The notes beneath the pieces were generated by a model. That model was given only the letters and a program-made list of their open reading frames with translations. It was not told the origin of the DNA and ran no database searches. The translations under genes and the position numbers were made by a program. Positions 1-55,044 of a stretch of DNA of 64,000 nt are shown here, one piece after another; position 1 is the first letter of the stretch, and every line of letters begins with the position of its first letter. This DNA is from a virus: the IMG/VR virus record IMGVR_UViG_3300033153_006744, positions 1 to 64,000 of that record, one strand, 5' to 3'.

Positions 1-143
1 TCTCTTAATGTTTTAGCTCTATCCTTTATGAATTTCTCTTTTTCTTCTTTTGTTAAACTATCATAATATTCAGTTAAACTGTGAGACTTAAAACTTAAAT
101 GCTTTAACGTTTTTTTCAAGTGTTTTCTTTTTATTGTTTTCAC
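1..143 (-). CDS. Partial small basic protein, C-terminus off window
   Basis: An open frame runs off the window edge. It starts at a GTG codon with a good Shine-Dalgarno (GGGGGTGA) a few bases upstream; there is no ATG in this frame. The visible 47 residues are rich in Lys, Glu and Ser, with no recognisable motif. An overlapping ATG in another frame stops at once, which supports the GTG. Function unknown. Confidence 0.55.
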   Translation of the reverse strand, partial: MKTIKRKHLKKTLKHLSFKSHSLTEYYDSLTKEEKEKFIKDRAKTLR

Positions 144-240
144 ATCTCACCCCCACGGGCAACACATCAATTTTGCTCTAACCATATATTGTGTTATTTA
201 TAAAATTATAAAACGCCATCAACATGTTACCCTATATAGA

Positions 241-471
241 TTAAAATCTTCTAGCTTTTAAATATTCTTTAAATTCGTCTGTACTCAATCTAGTAATATC
301 AAATGTCGTGATTGATGTATTTCTTTTGAAATATTCTTTTGTCTCTTTGTTTTGGTAAATTCCGTATTCAGAATCAAACAACTCAACAGTTGTAATGTAA
401 TCGAAATGCTTTGGATTGTGAGCTTTATCAAAGCCTACTACGTTATATAAACCTAATGCACTAAAAATCAT
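241..471 (-). CDS. Hypothetical protein, 76 aa
   Basis: Short soluble protein starting MIFSALGLYN, preceded by an AGGAGG ribosome site. Mixed aromatic and charged composition, no membrane segment, no cysteine cluster. It follows a leader hairpin in the gap before it, so it may be regulated together with, or separately from, the preceding 72-residue gene. No family recognised. Confidence 0.7.
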   Translation of the reverse strand: MIFSALGLYNVVGFDKAHNPKHFDYITTVELFDSEYGIYQNKETKEYFKRNTSITTFDITRLSTDEFKEYLKARRF

Positions 472-499
472 AATTACCTCCTATTATTTTTAAATTAAG

Positions 500-17196: not shown

Positions 17197-18164
17197 TACT
17201 TCTCCTTGTTCTCCATAGTTCGCATAGTTCTATAAATGTTTTGTATTGTAAAATTCATAAATGTAGCTATTTCATTAACAGAAAAACCACCTTCAACACA
17301 TTCTTTTATTATTTGTTTTTTTACCCTCATTGTTCTTGAATCTCTTTTCTTAAGGTGCTCAACTAATAACCCGTTTTTCTTTAAAATTTTATTAGCTATC
17401 TTTTTTAAATCATGATTTATCATTTTTTTGCATATAGGCATTAATATATAATTAACATCAGATGGGGTTAATTTCCTTTTATATGAAAAATAATCTGACT
17501 TTATGTCTTTAAAAACTCTTATTAGTTGCCTAATACTTAAACCCAGATCAAATATTCTATCAAAAGTTGTTTTATCTATATAGTTATTAACATCTTTAAA
17601 CAATTGCAATATTATCTTAGAACTAGTTTCAGAGTCATTAGATTGGGATATATGAACATTTACAAAATTTTCGCCCATTAACCTGTCGGAAATTCTTTTA
17701 GCAAAATCAAAGTCATCTAAACTTGTGTCAGAGGATATAACAATAAAGCTTTTACAATCCTCTGCTTGCCTTAGCATTTCAAATAATTTAGAATGTATAA
17801 ATTGAGAATTCTTAGTAATTACAGATTGAAAATCATCTATTATCAATATTTTACCAGCCCTACTCATGTCATATTTTGAGTTTCTAGAAAATACACTCAC
17901 ATCATCTTTGCCTTCGCTCTTAAAATCAAAGCAATATTTTTTAAAATCTGACCCAGAACCAAAAACATAATCATGATCACTTAATTCTAATACACCAGCC
18001 AGAGCTTTCATTAAGTGGGTTTTTCCAGAACCTGATGCACCAGTTAATAAAATACCTTCTACTAAATCCTCATCGTAGTAAACTCTTTTTCCTAAAGCCT
18101 GTACTTTGTCAAACGCTCTCTTGTTGCCACCGTGAATAATAAAATTTTTAAAACTTTGTTCCAA
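17196..18164 (-). CDS. DnaA-like AAA+ replication initiator
   Basis: Walker A GASGSGKTH (residues 42-50) and Walker B ILIIDD (106-111) place it in the DnaA/DnaC AAA+ clade. SIRQLIRVFKDI resembles the sensor-2 helix of DnaA (NIRELEGAL). The last 50 residues (RVKKQIIKECVEGGFSVNEIATFMNFTIQNIY) are laid out like DnaA domain IV, a helix-turn-helix that binds origin DNA. DnaA domain I is absent. Length 322 aa. It likely opens the phage origin, probably the AT-rich stretch just upstream, and loads host helicase. A DnaC-type loader is the alternative, but a DnaC would lack the HTH. Confidence 0.75.
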   Translation of the reverse strand: MEQSFKNFIIHGGNKRAFDKVQALGKRVYYDEDLVEGILLTGASGSGKTHLMKALAGVLELSDHDYVFGSGSDFKKYCFDFKSEGKDDVSVFSRNSKYDMSRAGKILIIDDFQSVITKNSQFIHSKLFEMLRQAEDCKSFIVISSDTSLDDFDFAKRISDRLMGENFVNVHISQSNDSETSSKIILQLFKDVNNYIDKTTFDRIFDLGLSIRQLIRVFKDIKSDYFSYKRKLTPSDVNYILMPICKKMINHDLKKIANKILKKNGLLVEHLKKRDSRTMRVKKQIIKECVEGGFSVNEIATFMNFTIQNIYRTMRTMENKEK

Positions 18165-18655
18165 TTTAATCTCCTTATTTAACTTATAAACAAAAACGCT
18201 ATCTAAACAAATAGCATGGTTTATTTAAAATGTCAAGCTTTTCTTTAAAGTAGCTACAAAAACTAAACATATATTTATTGTAACTCTAAACAAATACGAT
18301 TATAAAGCATTAATTTAAAAAGAAATTAACCTAAAAAAAATGAAAAAGCTATAGTAGATTAGAGTTTATATATATATTATATTAAAATAATCTAATACTC
18401 TAAAGATACCTTGTTTTTTCAGGTGTTACTTCAATCAAATCAACGCATTATGTTTAAGTTTTTTTAAAGTTTGTTTATCAGTTGTTTAAGCTTTTATGCA
18501 CGTTTCTAGTAACCCCTTACTCCCCGCATTCAACCCTCCGTCAATACAAATGCTTGTGTTTTGGATAATTCTTTGTTATTTCATGCAATGCGATTGATTT
18601 AAGTGGGTGTTAGGTGGATTTATTGTTCTGCTTTATTCTTTAGATCTAAGTGGTG
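18165..18655 (-). other. Non-coding AT-rich stretch, probable replication origin
   Basis: About 490 bases without a convincing gene, next to the DnaA-like gene. It holds (a) TCTAAACAAATA twice (18202-18213, 18285-18296) and a near copy around 18262; (b) a palindromic AT-rich core at 18355-18404, with TAGATTA/TAATCTA and AGAGT/ACTCT arms around a run of only A and T; (c) GGTGTTA three times (about 18422, 18605, 18651); (d) TGTTTAAG twice (about 18450, 18483); (e) a G-rich minus-strand tract at 18513-18540. Repeats, unwinding core and nearby initiator are the usual marks of an origin. Confidence 0.6.
18208..18236 (-). promoter_or_regulatory. Promoter of DnaA-like gene
   Basis: Minus-strand TTGACA, 17 bases, TATTTG. 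The -10 lies inside one copy of the TCTAAACAAATA repeat, so binding of the initiator to that repeat would repress its own gene. Autoregulation is inferred. Confidence 0.6.
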
Positions 18656-18823
18656 TTAGATCAAACTATCTTTTACTCTGCCAATGTGGTCTTTAATTTT
18701 GTATGTTATTTCTAATATTAAATCGTCATCATCAATTTCATTGCATTCACACCAGTACTCAAAGTCATCTTCTCCGCTAGTAATGAAAGCTCTTGCTAAT
18801 AGTTTAATTATATTTTCTTTCAT
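18656..18823 (-). CDS. Small acidic protein, 55 aa
   Basis: Starts MKENIIKLLARAF after AAGGAG; a longer frame has no site. Contains YWCECNEIDDDDLILEI. Last gene before the origin region. Function unknown. Confidence 0.6.
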   Translation of the reverse strand: MKENIIKLLARAFITSGEDDFEYWCECNEIDDDDLILEITYKIKDHIGRVKDSLI

Positions 18824-18834
18824 TATTCGTCTCC

Positions 18835-18984
18835 TTAAATTATCCATTCTGAGAAAATTACTCTATTGTGATCTAAAAATGGCAATGGTTTGCAAATTAA
18901 TTTTGACATACAAGCCGGATGCCATGCTGGATATTTCTCAATACCCAGTAATTCCAAAAATCTAAATGTTATATATCCATTCAT
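18835..18984 (-). CDS. Small protein, 49 aa
   Basis: MNGYITFRFLELLG..., with cysteines in ACMSKLICK and Trp/Pro-rich YPAWHPA. Strong GGGGGT site; two adjacent ATGs, of which the second is used. Overlaps the stop of the upstream gene. Function unknown. Confidence 0.6.
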   Translation of the reverse strand: MNGYITFRFLELLGIEKYPAWHPACMSKLICKPLPFLDHNRVIFSEWII

Positions 18985-19259
18985 CATCTACCCCCATCTC
19001 TTTTGTTTATATAATCTTTAATTACACAATCCTTGCCTCCGCATTCATTGCAAACCGAGAAATCCATAGCTTGTTCTATACAAGATGAGTCTTCAAAAAT
19101 TGCTTTCTTAAAGGCCTCGTTTTCTTCTTCAAGTCTAGCGATTTTTTGGGCATACTCATCCACAAGTTTCATGGCACCCGTAAACAAGGCTTTCTTTTTT
19201 TCGTTACTTTCTTTTAGTCCGCGGTTTTCATTAAATAATTCTTTCATTAATCCATCCAT
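18984..19259 (-). CDS. Coiled coil with Cys cluster, 91 aa
   Basis: Start at MDGLMKELF, six bases after GGAGG. Residues 10-60 form a coiled coil; the end has CNECGGKDC, a probable metal site with the earlier SSCIEQ cysteine. Same architecture as the protein at 13226-13579. Function unknown. Confidence 0.65.
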   Translation of the reverse strand: MDGLMKELFNENRGLKESNEKKKALFTGAMKLVDEYAQKIARLEEENEAFKKAIFEDSSCIEQAMDFSVCNECGGKDCVIKDYINKRDGGR

Positions 19260-19261
19260 TA

Positions 19262-19486
19262 TCAACCTCCTTTTTTATTTATAGCGTTAAAAAAATTCAC
19301 AAAAACCCTTAACAGAAAAACAATTAATACCATTTTTATAGAACTAACAAATGGGACTACAACTATAGACATTATTAAATAATTCCACAGCAAAATAGCA
19401 GTTAATGTTGTCAAAATAATTGCGATGGTCACAAAGGCAAATTCTTTTAAGTAACCCTTTAAAATCGCTTTATCTTTTGTTGTCAT
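19262..19486 (-). CDS. Two-span membrane protein, 74 aa
   Basis: Two hydrophobic segments (FVTIAIILTTLTAILLWNYL and VVVPFVSSIKMVLIVFLL) with a short loop between; N-terminus basic. Shape of a small holin or a superinfection-exclusion protein; location among early genes fits the latter better. Overlaps the upstream gene by 4 bases. Confidence 0.6.
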   Translation of the reverse strand: MTTKDKAILKGYLKEFAFVTIAIILTTLTAILLWNYLIMSIVVVPFVSSIKMVLIVFLLRVFVNFFNAINKKGG

Positions 19487-19668
19487 TTTTGTCTCCTATA
19501 TTTTCTCTTTTTCGTCATCTCTTTCTTTCCAATATTTCTTGACTCTAACCTGCTCTTTTCTTTGATGATCTCTAAATCTTTATCCCTTTTGTTTTCCAGG
19601 AACTCTAAGATATAACGCATGACTTCATAAGCAAATATAAGACATACTATTAAAATAATGAACATCAT
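19483..19668 (-). CDS. Single-span membrane protein, 61 aa
   Basis: N-terminal membrane helix (MMFIILIVCLIFAYEVMRYI) followed by a basic and charged cytoplasmic helix ending KKRKYRRQK. Coupled with the two-span protein downstream. Function unknown; a membrane pair is likely. Confidence 0.6.
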   Translation of the reverse strand: MMFIILIVCLIFAYEVMRYILEFLENKRDKDLEIIKEKSRLESRNIGKKEMTKKRKYRRQK

Positions 19669-19835
19669 GATTTACCTCCTTTTTTATACAGCACATAATC
19701 TACAATTGTTAAAACATCATTTTCAAAAAAGCCAGTCATTTTACAAGAATAATCTTCTCCATTGCTCAAGTCATAATGACAAAAGTATTTTCTGTTAAGT
19801 GAATCTAAAAATGCCTTTGTTATTGTTTTATTCAT
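19665..19835 (-). CDS. Small protein, 56 aa
   Basis: MNKTITKAFLDSL... reads through a beta section (YFCHYDLSNGEDYSC) to YVLYKKGGKS. Overlaps genes on both sides (ATGA at its end), with GGAG before its start. Function unknown. Confidence 0.6.
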   Translation of the reverse strand: MNKTITKAFLDSLNRKYFCHYDLSNGEDYSCKMTGFFENDVLTIVDYVLYKKGGKS

Positions 19836-20016
19836 CTGTTGCTCCCTTGTCTTTGTTAATTATTAGAAAGGCGTGTTTAGATGCTGGATAATCTCGAAAT
19901 TGACTTAACCAATATTCGTGCTGCTTTTGTACGTAATCCATGTCTAACCTATACTTCTTTTTTAGATATTTTCTAAATAACTTTTTTATTCTTTTAATTC
20001 TTATTGATTTATTCAT
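19828..20016 (-). CDS. Basic protein, 62 aa
   Basis: First half is very basic (SIRIKRIKKLFRKYLKKKYR) and could bind nucleic acid or membrane; the second half has EYWLSQFRDYPASKHAF. AGGAGG site. No family recognised. Confidence 0.6.
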   Translation of the reverse strand: MNKSIRIKRIKKLFRKYLKKKYRLDMDYVQKQHEYWLSQFRDYPASKHAFLIINKDKGATDE

Positions 20017-20025
20017 TTTTACCTC

Positions 20026-20199
20026 CTAATCATTCAATTTATCTTCTATTCCTTCAGCCCTAAAAAACCATTTAATTGTGAACATTTTTGTCTCACAAAA
20101 ACTTGCCTCACTTAAGTCACCTACTTTATACGCCTCTTTGCTCATTTCTTTAAAATATTTATAAATATGTATAGCTTGCTCTATGGTGTTTTTTTTCAT
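20026..20199 (-). CDS. Small protein, 57 aa
   Basis: MKKNTIEQAIHIYKYF... to ...EGIEDKLND, helical with ETKMFTIKWFFRAEGIE. CAGGAGACTGA ribosome site. Overlaps the stop of the fibre-tip gene by 4 bases, so both are made together. Function unknown. Confidence 0.6.
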   Translation of the reverse strand: MKKNTIEQAIHIYKYFKEMSKEAYKVGDLSEASFCETKMFTIKWFFRAEGIEDKLND

Positions 20200-20486
20200 T
20201 CAGTCTCCTGTGATATTGTGACATATCCTTTCCATGTCATTAATTGGTTAGTTCCTGCACCAGTTGAGTTTCTAAGTCTAATTATAACTCCGTTATTATC
20301 TGCATCTACAAAACTAGTTGCTGTAATTCCCGTTGCATTAGTAGTTGTAATTGCAACATTTGACACCGTTGGGACACCAGCAGCAATGCGATTAGTTGCA
20401 TATGGAAGATATAAGAATAAATCAACGACATCTTGCACTATGTTTTTCCATCCTAAAGCAGCCCCATAAATTCTTTCTTTATTCAT
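20196..20486 (-). CDS. Stand-alone copy of tail-fibre tip domain
   Basis: The 96 residues align end to end with the C-terminal 93 or so of the fibre protein at 21012-22382: KERIYGA, then GWK, VVD, PYA-NR, IPTVS/VPTVS, DADNNGV, LRNSTG/FRNSTG, QLMTW. About two thirds of positions are identical by eye. It lacks the fibre shaft and has its own promoter, leader hairpin and GGAGG site, so it is expressed separately and early. It may be a soluble receptor mask, a fibre cap, a store for domain exchange, or a leftover of duplication. Confidence 0.75.
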   Translation of the reverse strand: MNKERIYGAALGWKNIVQDVVDLFLYLPYATNRIAAGVPTVSNVAITTTNATGITATSFVDADNNGVIIRLRNSTGAGTNQLMTWKGYVTISQETE

Positions 20487-20508
20487 TGTGACCTCCTAAA
20501 TCATTTTT

Positions 20509-20529
20509 AGCCAAGACCCTTTCTTGACC
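20509..20529 (-). promoter_or_regulatory. 5' leader hairpin, type A (copy 5)
   Basis: Stem GGTCAAGA/TCTTGGCT with two G-T pairs, loop AAGGG, immediately after the predicted transcription start. Confidence 0.7.
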
Positions 20530-20537
20530 TTACATTA

Positions 20538-20566
20538 ACCATAACATATTTCAAGCCTAATGTCAA
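20538..20566 (-). promoter_or_regulatory. Sigma70-type promoter for early left region
   Basis: Minus-strand TTGACA, 17 bases, TATGGT. First promoter after the end of the virion genes; it would drive the fibre-tip copy and the string of small genes to the origin. Confidence 0.8.
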
Positions 20567-20742
20567 GCAGAATATCAATTAAATAATAAATTACTTGTAA
20601 AAAATAGATAAATGTTTTATTGTGATTTAGATGTTGTTATTTTATAGTAGCATATCTCTTTTTGATAGTTCTTTTGCCGGTGTAATTTGTTACCTCCTTA
20701 TTGCATCGGCTTTTTTTATTTGTATTTGTTATGTAATTTTAT

Positions 20743-21003
20743 TTATTTCTCGTCGTTGGTTTTTTCGCAGTTCTTAGCGGATTTTATGAATGTTAGTAAT
20801 TCTTTAAATCCATCTTGATCATATATGTAAACATCTTCTAAGCATTTATGTGCAGCCTTTGTCTCATAGCAAAGTTTATTTCTATGTATTGGCAAATGAG
20901 TTAGCTCTGGCAACTTGCAGTAATTATTAACATAAATTACCTTAGGTCTTTTAATGCAACCTAAAGATAATAATAAAAACAACAATAAAAATAATTTCTT
21001 CAT
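20743..21003 (-). CDS. Small lipoprotein, possible outer spanin
   Basis: Start at MKKLFLLLF after AGGAGG. A hydrophobic signal ends in the lipobox LSLGC (cysteine at 18), so the mature protein is lipid-anchored. The remaining 68 residues have three more cysteine-containing segments (NNYCKLPEL, KLCYE, HKCLE). It is the last gene of the virion operon, where lysis genes often lie; size fits an Rz1-like outer spanin, but Pro-rich content is low. The lipobox favours, without proving, a diderm host. Confidence 0.7.
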   Translation of the reverse strand: MKKLFLLLFLLLSLGCIKRPKVIYVNNYCKLPELTHLPIHRNKLCYETKAAHKCLEDVYIYDQDGFKELLTFIKSAKNCEKTNDEK

Positions 21004-21011
21004 GTAACCTC

Positions 21012-22382
21012 CTATGATATTAAAATATAACCTCTCCATGTCATCAATTGACTTGTGCCGGTTCCTGTTGAATTTCTAAACCTAATAGTCACTCCATTAT
21101 TGTCTGCCTCAAAAAAAGAACTAGTAGTTACACCAGTTGCACCTACTGTTGTAATTGCAACATCTGAAACAGTTGGAATTCCAGCGGATACCATTCGGTT
21201 AGCTGCATACGGAAAACGTAAGAATATATCAACGACACCCTGTGTTGTATCTTTCCAGCCTGAAACAGCCCCATAAATTCTTTCTTTTTTAATTGCAGTT
21301 CCAGAATTATTGACCCAAGTTCCTGCAGTTCTAACAGGTGGCAAGTCTATATCATCAGCTGCAGAAACAGAAAAAGAATCTGACATAATTGTATATCCTT
21401 CAAAGTCATCTATTTCAAAGACACTTACTCCAATTTCTTTTGTATATGAGCCTATTTCACCATTAAATCCAAATATTGTAGCTCTTCCAATGCTGCCAGC
21501 ATCGATTAGCTGTAATTTATCGTTTGTATATGTAGCGGGAATAGATACAACTCTTATGTTTCTCAGTAAAGCTAATCCACCATTAAAGTTTGTACCTAAG
21601 TCAGGATCTAAAAAATATAGTCCAAAAGCCTCAGTTCCATCAACTTGCAAATCTAATATTTTATAACTTGCAAAGCCACTTGTTAGCTCAGTCAATGTCA
21701 TTTCTTTGCTTAACTTGGCTAAATAAGGGTCAACAATGTTGGCAATTTCCATCACTCCGCCCTTTGCAGTTTCTCCCGTTAAATCTATTTTATCACCAAT
21801 AAATTTATACATAACGTCGCTAGCGTCTTCAAAGTTTAACACCATTCCTGATGTAATTTTATCAAGAAATGGAGTTGCACCAGAATTAGTTATAAAATAT
21901 GTTTTAATCCTAATCCCATTTTCATAAACAGGCAGTGTTGTTGGCAGCGGATCAGTTGTCCAGTGAAATTCCTCACCCCTAACAACTATAAATTCAACAC
22001 CATCAAGCAAATGTTTTTTAAATTTTGTCAAACTTTTTGTTTTTCCAACCTCATCGCCTTCTTTTTGATACCATCTTGCAAATATGGAAATATATCTTCT
22101 ATATCCAACTGTTGGAATAACGCTTGCTCCTGTAATGTCTGTTTCGCAATTTACGCTTACCGTATCAGTTGTCTCTAAGCTTTCCCCGTTTGCATCGTGA
22201 CCTTTTCCGGGGTAAATATCAACAAACCATGTATCGTTTTCATTTACTTTCCACCCCGACATTATTCCAATAAAATCAATACCTTTTATGTCGTCTTTAA
22301 ACTGTTTTTTAATGGCTTCTGATATCCACGTTAAATCGCCCCCATTTATAATGTAATCATTTAAAAATTTAAACATATTCAT
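21012..22382 (-). CDS. Tail fibre / receptor-binding protein
   Basis: The N-terminal part (to about 130) has WKVNENDTWFVDIYPGKGHD, similar in style to baseplate-attached fibre heads; a helical and Ser/Thr-rich middle follows; the C-terminal about 95 residues form a distinct tip domain that recurs alone at 20196-20486. Located right after the gpI-like gene, the P2-type place for fibres. AGGAG site with ATG six bases downstream. Receptor unknown. Confidence 0.75.
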   Translation of the reverse strand: MNMFKFLNDYIINGGDLTWISEAIKKQFKDDIKGIDFIGIMSGWKVNENDTWFVDIYPGKGHDANGESLETTDTVSVNCETDITGASVIPTVGYRRYISIFARWYQKEGDEVGKTKSLTKFKKHLLDGVEFIVVRGEEFHWTTDPLPTTLPVYENGIRIKTYFITNSGATPFLDKITSGMVLNFEDASDVMYKFIGDKIDLTGETAKGGVMEIANIVDPYLAKLSKEMTLTELTSGFASYKILDLQVDGTEAFGLYFLDPDLGTNFNGGLALLRNIRVVSIPATYTNDKLQLIDAGSIGRATIFGFNGEIGSYTKEIGVSVFEIDDFEGYTIMSDSFSVSAADDIDLPPVRTAGTWVNNSGTAIKKERIYGAVSGWKDTTQGVVDIFLRFPYAANRMVSAGIPTVSDVAITTVGATGVTTSSFFEADNNGVTIRFRNSTGTGTSQLMTWRGYILIS

Positions 22383-22398
22383 TTAAAACTCCTATATA

Positions 22399-23736
22399 TT
22401 ATAATATTGTTGTTGAGCCTAATTCGCTTGTTCCTAAAACCCACTCTCCATCAACAACAACGCCCTTAAAATATTCATTAATAGGTTTCCACCAGTTTGC
22501 AACAACAGTTATTTTATTTATTATGTCGTCATCTATTTCTAAACTATCAACTATTCCAACACCCCAAGAAAACCTCTCAACTGAGTCTGGATCACTATCA
22601 ATTATTGTTTCAGCTCCTATTAGCGAAGCTCCGATTAACCATCCAACATCAGGAAACCTTAAAACTTCTATATCTCTGTCAAATAATAGTTCTATAAATT
22701 GTATAAAATAATCAGTAAATCTTCTTTGCCTATAATAAGGAAAATTTAAAGCTATTTTTCTTTTTTGCTCCAGTGAGAACCAAGATAACCAATTTTCAGG
22801 AAACTTTTGTCTTAAAAGCATTGTACTTAATTTATCTTCAATTGTTGTAAAATTAAGGTCATTTTCCCATGCTAATTTATCTATAAATGCAAAAGTCTCT
22901 TTATCATCTGCCTCTAAAATAGAATCTAATTTTAACAATGTATTGTAGGTTTCATCTTTTTCTCTCCACTTTGCAGGGTACATTAATTCAAACCTATTAT
23001 ACTCCCTGTTTTGATTCCAATAATACGGTTTTGGAACAGTAAAGTCAAATGTATCTCCACTAGCGCTTATTAAATTTAAATTCTTATCATATACATTTTC
23101 GCATTTTACATAGTATTCGCCATCTATTGTTAGATTATCGTTTAGCTTTATTTTATAAATATCTGTAGCACTTAATATTGCTTTAATTTGATCATCTGTG
23201 CTTCTTTCTATACTTTCAACACTTGCAGGAAAAACAGATTTTAAAGAGCCAACTTGTTTTAAAAGAGATATATTTGAACTAAGAACAGTTGCTTCTTTCA
23301 TTTCTTCAGAAAACCCTATCCACATATCTTTTAAGTCATCTATTAAAACACCTGTAACTGTCGGTGCAACTGTGTCCATGGTTGTAAAATCATAAATTGA
23401 TACAGCAGATTCAGCCCCTAAGTCAGTGTTTATTTCTACATCATAATTGGTATCTGTTGCTAAAGTTAAAATTAAAGAATATCGTCTCCAGTAACTATTT
23501 AAATCCACATTAGTTAAACTTCCAGTGTAATCAGTTGTATTTATTTCAATTGTAGTTACTAATCCAGAATTGGCGTTTCCAGTAAAATTAAAAACATCAA
23601 AAGTTAAGGTTAAAGATGTAGAGACCTGAGTCTCTTTGTTTGCTGGAAATAAATTTCCTATAACCAATTTGTCAGAATCAGTTGCTTTAATACTTTCAAA
23701 TGCATCTAAATATAGTTTAGGAATTTTAATTGACAT
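22399..23736 (-). CDS. gpI-like baseplate protein with Ig-like N-terminus
   Basis: Residues about 25-220 form two beta domains; the second starts VAPTVTGVLIDD with a FSEEM motif as in bacterial Ig-like domains. From about 240 the protein matches P2 tail protein I style: LYPAKWREKDETYNTLLKLD, LEQKRKIALNFPYYRQRRFTD, then repeated WLIGASLIGAETII and WVLGTSELGSTTIL. gpI links the baseplate to fibres. Order after gpJ and before the fibre fits. Confidence 0.7.
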   Translation of the reverse strand: MSIKIPKLYLDAFESIKATDSDKLVIGNLFPANKETQVSTSLTLTFDVFNFTGNANSGLVTTIEINTTDYTGSLTNVDLNSYWRRYSLILTLATDTNYDVEINTDLGAESAVSIYDFTTMDTVAPTVTGVLIDDLKDMWIGFSEEMKEATVLSSNISLLKQVGSLKSVFPASVESIERSTDDQIKAILSATDIYKIKLNDNLTIDGEYYVKCENVYDKNLNLISASGDTFDFTVPKPYYWNQNREYNRFELMYPAKWREKDETYNTLLKLDSILEADDKETFAFIDKLAWENDLNFTTIEDKLSTMLLRQKFPENWLSWFSLEQKRKIALNFPYYRQRRFTDYFIQFIELLFDRDIEVLRFPDVGWLIGASLIGAETIIDSDPDSVERFSWGVGIVDSLEIDDDIINKITVVANWWKPINEYFKGVVVDGEWVLGTSELGSTTIL

Positions 23737-23742
23737 TTTATT

Positions 23743-24150
23743 TTACTCCAAAATTAACTCTATTTGTAACTCTTTTTCACCATGTAAATCATAAACAGGA
23801 ACTAGAATATTATCATCATAAATATCTGGATTATTTGTGCTTAAAATTCTATCTACAACAGTATTAAAAGCTGTTCCATCAACTCCTTCTATTCTTACTT
23901 TTAGCTTCCAATCAGCTCCAATTATACTAGTTTCTTCAACTATAAATCTATATTTTAATTTTAAATAAGCAATGAAATCGCAATTAAATTTTTGATTCAA
24001 ATGACAATAATCTCCTGCTTGGAAATTAAAATCAGTTGCATTTTTATCACCTATTAAAAAGACATAAGAACCATCATCAAAAGGTTCTATTTTTATTGGG
24101 ATTATTCTACCCTTGTTTTGTCCATTCTTATCATTTAAAACAGAAATCAT
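23743..24150 (-). CDS. Baseplate-associated hypothetical protein, 135 aa
   Basis: Beta-rich (SYVFLIGDKNATDFNF, RFIVEETSIIGADWKLKVRIEG), located between structural genes with 6- and 11-base gaps. Typical look of a small virion domain, perhaps a fibre connector. No family recognised. Confidence 0.6.
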   Translation of the reverse strand: MISVLNDKNGQNKGRIIPIKIEPFDDGSYVFLIGDKNATDFNFQAGDYCHLNQKFNCDFIAYLKLKYRFIVEETSIIGADWKLKVRIEGVDGTAFNTVVDRILSTNNPDIYDDNILVPVYDLHGEKELQIELILE

Positions 24151-51218: not shown

Positions 51219-51832
51219 GATTTTGAGAACTCCTTATTTCTAAACAAGTTTCCGAGTCCAGTAAATTGCTTTAACCTTAAGACCTCGTCCTTATCCATCC
51301 CTAGTTGTTCACTTATCTTCTTGTCACTCCAGCCCATAAAATAAAGCTCTTCAACTATTTCACTCATAGATTGTATGCCATGCGTTCCTCTCGCCCTATT
51401 GTGTCTAATTGTACTAGCCATTCTTTCCTTTAAACTTTTTTCTATAACCACTAGTGGCAAATAGCCCTTGGTTCGTGTTTTTATGTCATCATATTCCTTT
51501 CCAATTCTATTCCTGTGAAATCCATCAACAACAACATACTTATCTTGCTCTTTATCATAAAAAGATACAATTGGTTGAGTATATCCATCTTCTTTTATTG
51601 ACCTATATAATAATTGCATTTCTGGAGGTGCAACCTTGTTTGGGTTGTAATTATTAGCCTTAACCCTATCTGCTTTTATCCACAAAACATTGCTGACTGG
51701 CTCTTCTTTAAGTGGGTTAATTTCGTTTAGTTTAGAATAAATGTCATTTAATAATTCTATCTTGTCATCTTGTTTTCTTATCTTCTTTATGTTGAAAATA
51801 AGTTCGTCAACCTTATCTAATAATTCTTTCAT
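51209..51832 (-). CDS. ibrB: IbrB-like ParB-domain protein
   Basis: 207 aa. After a helical head, residues about 48-140 are a ParB/sulfiredoxin-like domain: WIKADRVKANNYNPN, then KEDGYTQPIVSF and the signature VVDGFHRNR (101-109). A helix-turn-helix-like segment follows (GWSDKKISEQLGMDKDEV). IbrB, encoded beside IbrA in E. coli and in many mobile elements, has this layout; its biochemical role is not settled. Four-base overlap (ATGA) with the ibrA-like gene. Confidence 0.8.
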   Translation of the reverse strand: MKELLDKVDELIFNIKKIRKQDDKIELLNDIYSKLNEINPLKEEPVSNVLWIKADRVKANNYNPNKVAPPEMQLLYRSIKEDGYTQPIVSFYDKEQDKYVVVDGFHRNRIGKEYDDIKTRTKGYLPLVVIEKSLKERMASTIRHNRARGTHGIQSMSEIVEELYFMGWSDKKISEQLGMDKDEVLRLKQFTGLGNLFRNKEFSKSWI

Positions 51833-53046
51833 TCTCCTAGCTCCTCTTTCATTTTATAATATTTTTCGTATTGATTTTTAGTTTGACCAAACGACAAACT
51901 TTTACAGATTTTATCGTTCTTTAATATAACTTTAGCAAGCCTCCGCCATGATGGAGCCTTTTTAGAGCTTTCAAGTTTTTTGTCTGCTTCATCTGGAATT
52001 CCATCTGGATAACCATTTTTAGACCACCACCGAATAAATATCTTGAATTTTTGCCCATACCACTCTGCTTCAAATTTTGGAAGAGTTGCCATTAGAAAAT
52101 TAACATAACTTTCCCATGTGTGATTTTTTGGCAATATTACCTTGTTGTTTCCTAATAAAAAGCTTTTGCAATATATGTTGCCAAAATTAGCTCCAGACAC
52201 TCTATCAACAATTCTAGACCACGTTTCAGGTTCACACTGTCTAAATAAATTAAGACCTTTTCTTTGGTCATCTCCGTATGGCTGACATATTCTTGCTTCA
52301 TGTATTGATAACCCCTGCATGTACATGAAATCATAAATTTTATTGTATGTATAGCTCTCGTTTCCAACAGAAACCCATATATCTTTAGTCTTCCAGTCAT
52401 AAATAGGGTAAAAATTAAAAACATTCTCAACAATTTGAGTTGTCCACATTTTATCTTTATATATTTTTTTCTTCGTATTTTTAATGGTTCTATATCTATT
52501 TAAACTTTCATCTGATCTTATTCCAACTCCACAGGCAATTTTTTCTTTTCCAACTTTGAACCACTCTGCAAACCTAACAACTAATTCTTCAAACTCTATT
52601 CCTCTATGAAACCATTTCTCCCATTCTTTGGGCATGTTATTTTCGTTTATAACATATTTTGAATTAGGCATCGGCCTAACCCATTTATCTTCATTTTCTT
52701 TATCCCAACAAATCCATTGTGGCTGGTAAACACTTACTGCATTTCTTAAATTTAAAGGCAAGCATAGCCAATAACCATCAATATCTTTATTGTTGAAAAT
52801 TTCTTCAACATGCTTTATTGTAGACTTATACTGAGCCTCTAAGTCAATGAAAAGTATTTTTATTGGTATTTTGTTCTTTTTTTTCGCAATTTCAAGTGCT
52901 AGTTGAACCATTACACTAGAGTCTTTTCCGCCAGAAAAAGAAAAGCAAATCTCATCTTTGTCAAAGTTGTCAAAAATAAAATTAAGTCTTTCTATTGCCT
53001 TGTCCCAAACATTTACTTTTGAATATGTTTTTGATTCACTGTTCAT
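51829..53046 (-). CDS. ibrA: IbrA-like PAPS-reductase-family protein (DUF3440)
   Basis: 405 aa. The PP-loop SFSGGKDSS (S36-S44) marks the PAPS reductase / N-type ATP pyrophosphatase superfamily; the long C-terminal part with SIHEARICQPYGDDQRKGLNLF and WESYVNFLMATLPKFEAEWYG is the DUF3440/IbrA signature. The family binds ATP and activates a substrate by adenylation; the substrate is unknown. It has an own promoter with TTGACA and an AAGGAGG site. Follows the separate CysH-like gene, so the island has two PP-loop proteins. Confidence 0.85.
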   Translation of the reverse strand: MNSESKTYSKVNVWDKAIERLNFIFDNFDKDEICFSFSGGKDSSVMVQLALEIAKKKNKIPIKILFIDLEAQYKSTIKHVEEIFNNKDIDGYWLCLPLNLRNAVSVYQPQWICWDKENEDKWVRPMPNSKYVINENNMPKEWEKWFHRGIEFEELVVRFAEWFKVGKEKIACGVGIRSDESLNRYRTIKNTKKKIYKDKMWTTQIVENVFNFYPIYDWKTKDIWVSVGNESYTYNKIYDFMYMQGLSIHEARICQPYGDDQRKGLNLFRQCEPETWSRIVDRVSGANFGNIYCKSFLLGNNKVILPKNHTWESYVNFLMATLPKFEAEWYGQKFKIFIRWWSKNGYPDGIPDEADKKLESSKKAPSWRRLAKVILKNDKICKSLSFGQTKNQYEKYYKMKEELGE

Positions 53047-53067
53047 TCTACCTCCTTAGTTACTTAC

Positions 53068-53096
53068 ACTGTAACACATTTTAAACTAAATGTCAA
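53068..53096 (-). promoter_or_regulatory. Internal promoter before ibrA-like gene
   Basis: Minus-strand TTGACA, 17 bases, TACAGT. It would drive ibrA-ibrB-csf3-csf1 apart from csf2-cysH. No type-A leader hairpin follows; the leader is very short. Thus subunit ratios may be set separately from Csf2. Confidence 0.65.
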
Positions 53097-53855
53097 CTAT
53101 GTATATGCTTTTATTTCTGGATGAAAACTTAACATGAGATTGTATTGTTTTTTATAGTAATACTTTAACCATGAAAACTGACCTATTGTTGCAGCCGTTG
53201 GATCTACAAACCAAGATATTCTTATTTTAGCTGGATCATCTGTAAATCTTGTTTTATTATATGCCGGGTGTAGCAATTTATCTAATTTTCTACTGTAAAT
53301 ATATGCAAAAACATCATCCCCAGTTAAATCACAAATCGGATAAAACTGATATATCTTATTTTTCTTAGAATAAAATAATTTACCCATATGTTTTATTAAA
53401 TTTTCCCTTCTTTTGCTTTCTTCTTTTCTTATCCCAATCAAGGCAATTTTATAATCATTGTCCTGTTGGAAGTTTCTAATGGGCGTCATCATTGCCTTTT
53501 CAAACGCATAATTCTTGCACCCAGCATCATAAAAAGCCTTCTTTTTTGCATATTCATCTAGTATGTCAATTGGGGATTTTACTACATTTATTGTCTTATT
53601 GTGGTGTTTTTCCGCTAGTTTTATAATTCCGTAGCTCTCGGGTAGCTCATACCAAGAATCATGAAACATTATGTCTAAATTAGGGTTTGCCTCTAATGCA
53701 ATATCTAGCATTACTAAACTATCCTTGCCAGTGCTATATGAAATAGAACCCTTTGTATTTCTTGTTTCTTTTTCAATAGAGCTCTTAACCAGCTCTATTT
53801 TTCCCTTAAACTCGTCTAGCTCTGCATACAACAAATAATATTCTTTATTTTTCAT
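53097..53855 (-). CDS. cysH: CysH-like PAPS-reductase-family protein of the Csf island
   Basis: 252 aa. The start is an ATG nine bases after GGAG inside the csf2 end (overlap 11 bases); a TTG further up is the alternative. PP-loop SYSTGKDSL (near residue 40), then IMFHDSWYELPESYGIIKLAEKHH, and near the end DPAKIRISWF and FSWLKYYYKKQY. The redox CxxC and ECGLH end of true PAPS reductases are absent, so sulfate reduction is unlikely; adenylation or nucleic-acid thiolation by analogy with DndC is an inference. CysH-like genes are known companions of type IV-B systems. Confidence 0.8.
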   Translation of the reverse strand: MKNKEYYLLYAELDEFKGKIELVKSSIEKETRNTKGSISYSTGKDSLVMLDIALEANPNLDIMFHDSWYELPESYGIIKLAEKHHNKTINVVKSPIDILDEYAKKKAFYDAGCKNYAFEKAMMTPIRNFQQDNDYKIALIGIRKEESKRRENLIKHMGKLFYSKKNKIYQFYPICDLTGDDVFAYIYSRKLDKLLHPAYNKTRFTDDPAKIRISWFVDPTAATIGQFSWLKYYYKKQYNLMLSFHPEIKAYT

Positions 53856-55044
53856 TTTCTTTAACTCCAATAAAAGCTAGGATATCTTTTTTGTTTTTCT
53901 CTATATGCCTTAAGTATAAATTATTTGCATTTTCAGGAATTGTCAACTCTGACAAATCTATTTCAGATGAACCAGTTGCAAACATTCCGCCAATAAACGG
54001 ATTTTCTTTAAAAAGAATTAATGCATGCCAGAAGGCCGAAACAGATAATTCATTAAAATCCATCATTCTAAAGCCATGATTGAACTGAGTTCCTTTTGCA
54101 AAAACTTCATATTCATACTTCATATGAGTTGGGTTTTCATCTTTTTTGTCTTTTATCGCCTTTATTGATATATTCTTTTCATCTTTAGAGCTATCTTTTC
54201 TGCTTTGAAAAATCATGTCCAAGTAAGACCAGAATGAGTTAATTCCTGTTTTCAACTCCACGCATTTAGGATATGCAAAACCAACAGATAATTGACCTTC
54301 TATTGTCATGTTGCCTATTGCACTGCCAAAAACACCAAGCATTGGAATGCTATCTATTAGCTTTTCTCTTTTTTCTAAGTCCTCATATAGGGTAGACTCG
54401 GTCAAGGCTCCGCCAGTAAACAAAATATGATATAATTGTTTATCTATTTTTTTACATCCAACTCTTTTTAAGAAATCATACATCGCTAATCTTCTTAAGA
54501 CGCCCCTAATGCTATTTCCAGATATACAAGGAATCAGCTCAAATGTTTTATTGTATGTTTTAAGTTTCTCTTTTTTTACATCTAATTTATGGTCTTTATC
54601 CTTGCTCTTCATTCTTAATAAAACAGTTATAGTGTGAGCCTCATCTCTAACTTTTGACAAAAACTCAACATCTGTTATTTGTTGTAGATAATTGAATGTT
54701 TTATCTTTTAAATCAGGCATTCTAACACCACATAAATCTGCAAATACTTCAAAAAATTGGAATCTATTTGAAGATGTTGCAGACCTTTTAATTTTTGAAT
54801 ATAGCTCATCCCATATTCCCATTAATCTCTTTCCTTTTATTTTGCTAAAGTCTATCTTAGAGTATATACTATAACAAACATCAACAATGATATTTCTAAC
54901 ATCATCATCTGAAAACGAGGTTAAAAAGTTCTCGTTTTTAACCATTATTTTCTGTCTCCTAAGCAGCTTTGTTGTTCCGTCTGTCTTATCGGAACCCGTG
55001 TGAAGGAATGTTGTTCCAGTGAAATTGTAGTCAACTTTAATCAT
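53845..55044 (-). CDS. csf2: Csf2: Cas7-like backbone protein of type IV
   Basis: 399 aa. RAMP features: NFTGTTFLHTGS at the N-terminus with KLLRRQKI (27-34); PCISGNSIRGVLRRL (172-186); LFTGGAL (208-214); MLGVFGSAIGNMTIEGQLSVGFAYP (about 235-259), which is as in Csf2; and FNHGFRMMDFNELS near the end. Cas7-like proteins bind guide RNA along their length and form the helical backbone of the complex. AAGGAG before the ATG. First cas-like gene of the operon. Confidence 0.85.
   Translation of the reverse strand: MIKVDYNFTGTTFLHTGSDKTDGTTKLLRRQKIMVKNENFLTSFSDDDVRNIIVDVCYSIYSKIDFSKIKGKRLMGIWDELYSKIKRSATSSNRFQFFEVFADLCGVRMPDLKDKTFNYLQQITDVEFLSKVRDEAHTITVLLRMKSKDKDHKLDVKKEKLKTYNKTFELIPCISGNSIRGVLRRLAMYDFLKRVGCKKIDKQLYHILFTGGALTESTLYEDLEKREKLIDSIPMLGVFGSAIGNMTIEGQLSVGFAYPKCVELKTGINSFWSYLDMIFQSRKDSSKDEKNISIKAIKDKKDENPTHMKYEYEVFAKGTQFNHGFRMMDFNELSVSAFWHALILFKENPFIGGMFATGSSEIDLSELTIPENANNLYLRHIEKNKKDILAFIGVKENEK

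Follow-up and report, generated by a model that had tools for sequence, protein, structure and literature searches.

Superinfection exclusion and the protection of progeny from cell debris are usually ascribed to exported phage proteins unrelated to the tail fibre. T5 Llp and T4 Spackle, two early superinfection-exclusion proteins, are both exported (PMC9586334, PMC7677548). In T4-like phages, promoter/stem-loop cassettes termed PeSLs have been described (Arbiol 2010 and Comeau 2014, as cited in PMC4503421). Here we describe a contractile-tailed phage in which the tip of the tail fibre has been duplicated into an intact reading frame of its own, preceded by a promoter and a leader hairpin that each belong to a class recurring across the genome. 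The product is tentatively read as a soluble receptor-binding decoy, with a probability of about 0.35.

The virus record totals 90,494 bp, and the window analyzed here is its first 64 kb. Window positions 1–101 are repeated exactly at genome 90394–90494; because of this 101-bp copy of its start at its end, the record is apparently complete, and it is probably circular or circularly permuted. Matches for portal, sheath, tape measure and baseplate wedge proteins identify the tail type, and the minus strand carries nearly all genes. The structural (late) block extends between ~63.9 kb and 20.7 kb; baseplate genes, the fibre and a lipoprotein gene close it at the lower end (Table 1). The non-structural (early) half encodes a DnaA-like ATPase, an ERF recombinase, a PD-(D/E)XK nuclease, Rha/KilAC antirepressors, a methylase and a dATP/dGTP hydrolase domain. 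Within the structural block, two neighbouring genes (window 51829–53870) have phosphoadenosine phosphosulfate (PAPS) reductase-like matches, and a NUMOD4/HNH homing endonuclease gene lies on the opposite, plus strand at genome 72664–73239. No tRNA or Rfam matches were found in the 64-kb window.

Table 1 Features of the fibre-tip locus (window coordinates)
Feature	Position	Strand	Basis or remark
Next gene of putative early operon, 57 aa	20026..20199	-	no assigned role
Duplicated DNA block, 298 nt	20191..20488	-	~74% identical to 20995-21295
Stand-alone fibre-tip paralogue, 96 aa	20196..20486	-	ORF list, alignment to fibre
Leader hairpin GTCAAGA-aaggg-TCTTGGC	about 20505-20525	-	near predicted transcript 5' end
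Promoter TTGACA-17-TATGGT, phage-wide class	20538..20566	-	within-genome comparison
Lipoprotein, 86 aa, possible o-spanin	20743..21003	-	between fibre and tip genes
Tail fibre, 456 aa	21012..22382	-	parental-type tip at residues 364-456 (21012-21293)
gpI-like gene	22399-23736		assigned by position and inspection
Baseplate gene	27380-28894		matches baseplate wedge family, E 7e-10

A duplicated fibre tip in its own reading frame

The tip gene opens with an ATG at 20486, served by the Shine-Dalgarno sequence AGGAGGT, and closes with a TGA at 20196–20198; in the sequence ATGA, this stop shares bases with the start of the next gene. Its product shares 62 of 93 residues (67%; one gap, E = 2e-37) with fibre residues 364–456. 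The domain occurs in just these two copies, a third being absent from the whole 90,494-bp record. The first-pass annotation had matched the 96-aa protein to about the last 93 residues of the fibre and had described substitutions spread over the domain; both descriptions hold, with 24 synonymous and 29 non-synonymous differences scattered among 91 codons. Production of the same tip from an internal start in the fibre gene was rejected, the aligned codon being ATT with no good Shine-Dalgarno sequence.

At the DNA level, the two copies are direct repeats in the same orientation, ~0.8 kb apart, in which 20191–20381 aligns in register with 20995–21185 and 20386–20488 with 21193–21295. Homology begins 2 nt before the tip ATG, upstream of which identity is at background (13/60), and extends a few bases into the next gene. 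The fibre stop TAG aligns with CAG in the tip, which reads four extra codons (QETE); at the fibre locus these codons are the ribosome-binding site of the following gene. The duplicated block takes in the position of the fibre stop codon together with the Shine-Dalgarno sequence and ATG that follow it. From these homology limits, the TAG/CAG change and the overlapping stop, it follows that the unit was duplicated together with its 3' flank, with a clean cut at the domain border.

The fibre gene directly follows gpJ-like and gpI-like baseplate genes. The lipoprotein encoded between the two tips has a signal sequence and an LSLGC lipobox by inspection and a weak match to an Rz-like spanin family (PHROG 1275, E = 0.008); its position beside the fibre also recalls receptor-blocking lipoproteins. 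Between this gene and the tip promoter, window 20679–20720 holds an inverted repeat, GCCGGTG...GCATCGGC, followed by a plus-strand T-run, and the loop carries AAGGAGGT on the minus strand.

The main rival to a decoy would start from the same boundaries: an older tip displaced by a new fibre end plus lipoprotein gene, leaving beside the early promoter a remnant that is expressed and has little or no selected role. Homology that continues past the fibre stop and the ribosome-binding site, as far as the following ATG, looks as if the tip once ended a fibre gene directly before 20199, and the genome holds another diverged duplication; against this, the frame is intact and a clean promoter, hairpin, Shine-Dalgarno sequence and ATG stand at the domain border. 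The rate of divergence bears on it in both directions. Between tip and fibre tip, dN is 0.20 and dS 0.93 (pairwise dN/dS 0.22). In simulations, a neutral tip lineage carrying half of the divergence rarely gave so low a dN (P = 0.01), which argues against the remnant, whereas a neutral tip branch with a quarter or less was compatible (P = 0.28 and 0.81), as the remnant would allow. The earlier claim that the copies had diverged under constraint thus stands for the pair as a whole and falls short of proof for the tip lineage alone, with which a short neutral branch is compatible; judged from these substitution patterns, the tip itself has likely diverged under constraint.

Searches for relatives returned nothing: tblastn of the tip, the fibre and the gpI-like protein against 50,697 phage records; pattern-plus-tblastn searches of IMG/VR with the tip, the fibre, the two-tip alignment, the portal, the sheath and the PAPS-reductase-like protein; the two-tip alignment against genome contigs; the exact promoter and hairpin patterns in IMG/VR; and megablast of window 18000–24000. 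That no relative is known to keep the tip gene is also compatible with a remnant, a reading that we regard as possible, if unlikely.

It had further been proposed that the second tip could serve for exchange of host range. A sequence reservoir of this kind, feeding the fibre by recombination or gene conversion, would draw on a DNA identity of 74% and on a 22-nt identical start. The mechanism is missing, however: the copies lie in direct orientation, so that crossing over would delete ~0.8 kb including the spanin-like lipoprotein gene and the promoter; no reverse transcriptase, integrase or resolvase was found in the record; the substitutions are not adenine-specific and show no evident conversion tract (the longest run of identity is 22 nt; shuffle P = 0.08); and the tip's own expression signals would be needless. 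We consider a reservoir very improbable. Specific switching systems were rejected. For a diversity-generating retroelement, there is no RVT_1 match in the record, and the differences affect all four bases, with third codon positions predominating; for an invertible fibre cassette of the Mu/P1 type, the copies lie on the same strand, with no resolvase family match and no convincing inverted repeats; and for integrase-linked switching, no tyrosine integrase was found in the record.

A phage-wide promoter and hairpin class

Upstream of the tip gene, a 34-nt stretch of the promoter recurs at 33 of 34 positions at genome 79355–79322 (E = 2e-11). It belongs to a class of ~14 sites with the pattern TACTTGACATT-n-AAATAnnTTATATT, all on the minus strand (window 836, 8116, 14987, 16703, 20566, 53096 and 55613; genome 71138, 72526, 79352, 84101, 88696 and others). 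Scored against a matrix built from nine other copies with the tip promoter excluded, the latter reaches a leave-one-out score of 34.8, compared with a maximum of 14.2 in a null of ten shuffled genomes. A generic sigma-70 scan was not significant in the region (27 found vs 31.6 expected by chance).

Twelve of the 14 sites lie outside the late structural block (binomial P = 0.01). From this distribution of the class across the genome we infer that the tip promoter acts early, a fair reading because so many of its members avoid the late block. The two copies within that block precede genes of unassigned or PAPS-reductase-like kind, the one at 53096 standing before the second PAPS-reductase-like gene. 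A diverged duplication of an early-region segment (86–90%; window 1–482, 755–1097 and 2558–2999 against genome 87830–88285, 88614–88957 and 89961–90387) contains one promoter-hairpin unit.

A hairpin of eight pairs is common to nine promoters of the class and is placed where the transcript should begin. Across the nine, 97% of cells are paired and three pairs have changed on both sides with pairing kept; sliding the hairpin partners, as a control, abolishes the pairing. At the 5' terminus, such a hairpin may stabilize the mRNA. The first-pass annotation had given the tip gene an early promoter of its own and a leader hairpin. The promoter, at 20566–20538, is confirmed by a score far above the shuffled null and the hairpin by its covariation across nine promoters; of the word 'early', class membership is secure, and timing depends on the position of 12 of the 14 sites.

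Predicted fold of the tip domain

An AlphaFold model of the tip, built from an input of two sequences only, has six strands at a pLDDT of 67, and the model of the full-length fibre is unusable (pLDDT 32). In Foldseek and VIA-align searches, the top neighbours of the tip were a discoidin II lectin domain, tailspike C-terminal domains (LKA1, phi297, AP22), the R1 pyocin fibre knob and snail H-type agglutinins, which align over the whole tip chain and several of which are free-standing lectins of ~100 aa. The structural Z of 7–9 is near the stated background of the tool, and the same holds for the Helix agglutinins (Z 7.3–7.5) and SLL-2 (Z 6.2). Among viral predicted structures, the matches were ends of tail fibres and proteins carrying an H-type lectin annotation. 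With a two-tip sequence profile, the R1 pyocin fibre ranked second among PDB entries, in about the same register, but at E = 1.5.

Family profiles gave no match. The tip has none in Pfam up to E = 1, H_lectin (PF09458) finds nothing in the whole record, and neither tip nor fibre matches the gp53-like C-terminal domain (PF21882) in Pfam. With hhalign, the two tips reached a probability of 2.6% against AP22 gp53 and nothing significant against AP22 gp54 or the Bacillus phage Page fibre. Because these sequence profiles do not match, the tip is assigned to neither the H_lectin nor the gp53-like family. The modeled fold is likely a six-stranded sandwich resembling H-type lectins and the R-pyocin knob, and suggests an autonomous, probably trimeric tip domain, for which we infer trimerization, receptor binding and a decoy role.

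A trimerizing fold would also suit other uses, which are less likely than either a decoy or a remnant. The free tip could co-trimerize with the fibre C-terminal domain or nucleate its folding, like an intermolecular chaperone; the fibre retains the whole tip domain, and the predicted fold resembles trimerizing domains. The promoter, however, is of the early type and not within the late operon, the sequences diverge by 33%, a mixed trimer would be without shaft chains, and no likeness to known fibre chaperones was found, all of which makes an assembly partner improbable. We hold it still more doubtful that the virion bears the tip as a second receptor-binding subunit, with the lectin-like domain of the tip as its point of attachment: the domain is of a receptor-binding type and H-type lectin proteins of ~100 aa occur in other phage genomes, yet the tip has no attachment domain and its gene sits in the early operon rather than the tail operon.

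A free tip as a candidate decoy, and its closest parallels

The decoy is the preferred reading, held with low confidence, whereas the anatomy of the locus is well supported. Some 93 codons from the end of the fibre gene, with the stop and ribosome-binding site, were duplicated, or gained from the fibre of a close relative, and joined at the domain border to the promoter, hairpin, Shine-Dalgarno and ATG cassette that the phage uses before its early and accessory genes. The tip would be the first protein of the early operon and would be made in the cytoplasm. For an autonomous, lectin-like and probably trimeric domain, the simplest target would be that of the fibre; a soluble tip would accumulate during infection and, once freed by lysis, occupy receptors on neighbouring cells and debris, which would spare progeny from loss and hinder competitors. 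Alternatively, its target might be intracellular, either the receptor glycan or precursors of it.

Neither a signal peptide nor, by inspection, a lipobox was found in the tip, whose top N-terminal 18-aa hydrophobic window scores 0.91, vs 1.78 in the neighbouring lipoprotein. Because the tip without a signal peptide would stay in the cytoplasm, blocking of surface receptors before lysis is unlikely, which weakens the original suggestion that a tip made early blocks receptors at the cell surface. Two further points speak against a decoy: it could hinder the phage's own progeny as well, and no relative keeps the tip gene, as no relative at all was found in the phage, IMG/VR and genome collections. 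The fuller proposal, of a free trimeric copy of the receptor-binding tip produced early and under selection as a soluble decoy that masks receptors on debris and neighbouring cells or intracellular receptor precursors, is doubtful. If true, a detached copy of the phage's own tip would be a simple route to a receptor-specific decoy and would suggest a search for detached tips in other phages. For a phage lineage that otherwise has no annotation, the promoter-hairpin class offers an entry to early regulation.

Known systems resemble single parts of this locus. The R1 pyocin (6cxb/6cl5), phi297 gp61, LKA1 gp49 and AP22 gp53/gp54 knobs share the predicted beta-sandwich over the whole tip chain (Z 5–8.4), and the pyocin and tailspike knobs are C-terminal, as is the tip in the parental fibre. 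Stand-alone tips were sought among unlabelled gp53-like phage matches, and the three inspected all carry the domain inside a longer protein, whereas here it also has its own gene. H-type lectins (Helix agglutinins, SLL-2 and the discoidin C-terminal domain) are like the tip in predicted fold and as free proteins of ~95–100 aa; the tip differs in having no Pfam H_lectin match, and its sugar binding is putative. T5 Llp and T4 Spackle are, like the tip, small early phage proteins, and act at adsorption or entry, but they are exported and are not copies of a receptor-binding tip, whereas the 96-aa tip has no signal peptide (PMC9586334, PMC7677548). In the PeSLs, as here, an early promoter and a stem-loop are repeated before accessory genes; as cited in PMC4503421, they differ from the present hairpin, which lies downstream of the promoter at the transcript 5' end and is without a T-run, and the likeness is one of arrangement. 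In the literature searched, which covered few subscription journals, we found no account of a fibre tip that is detached and has an early-type promoter. The components, namely a lectin-like domain at the fibre end, accessory genes under promoters of their own and recurring promoter/stem-loop cassettes, are familiar; their combination appears to be new.
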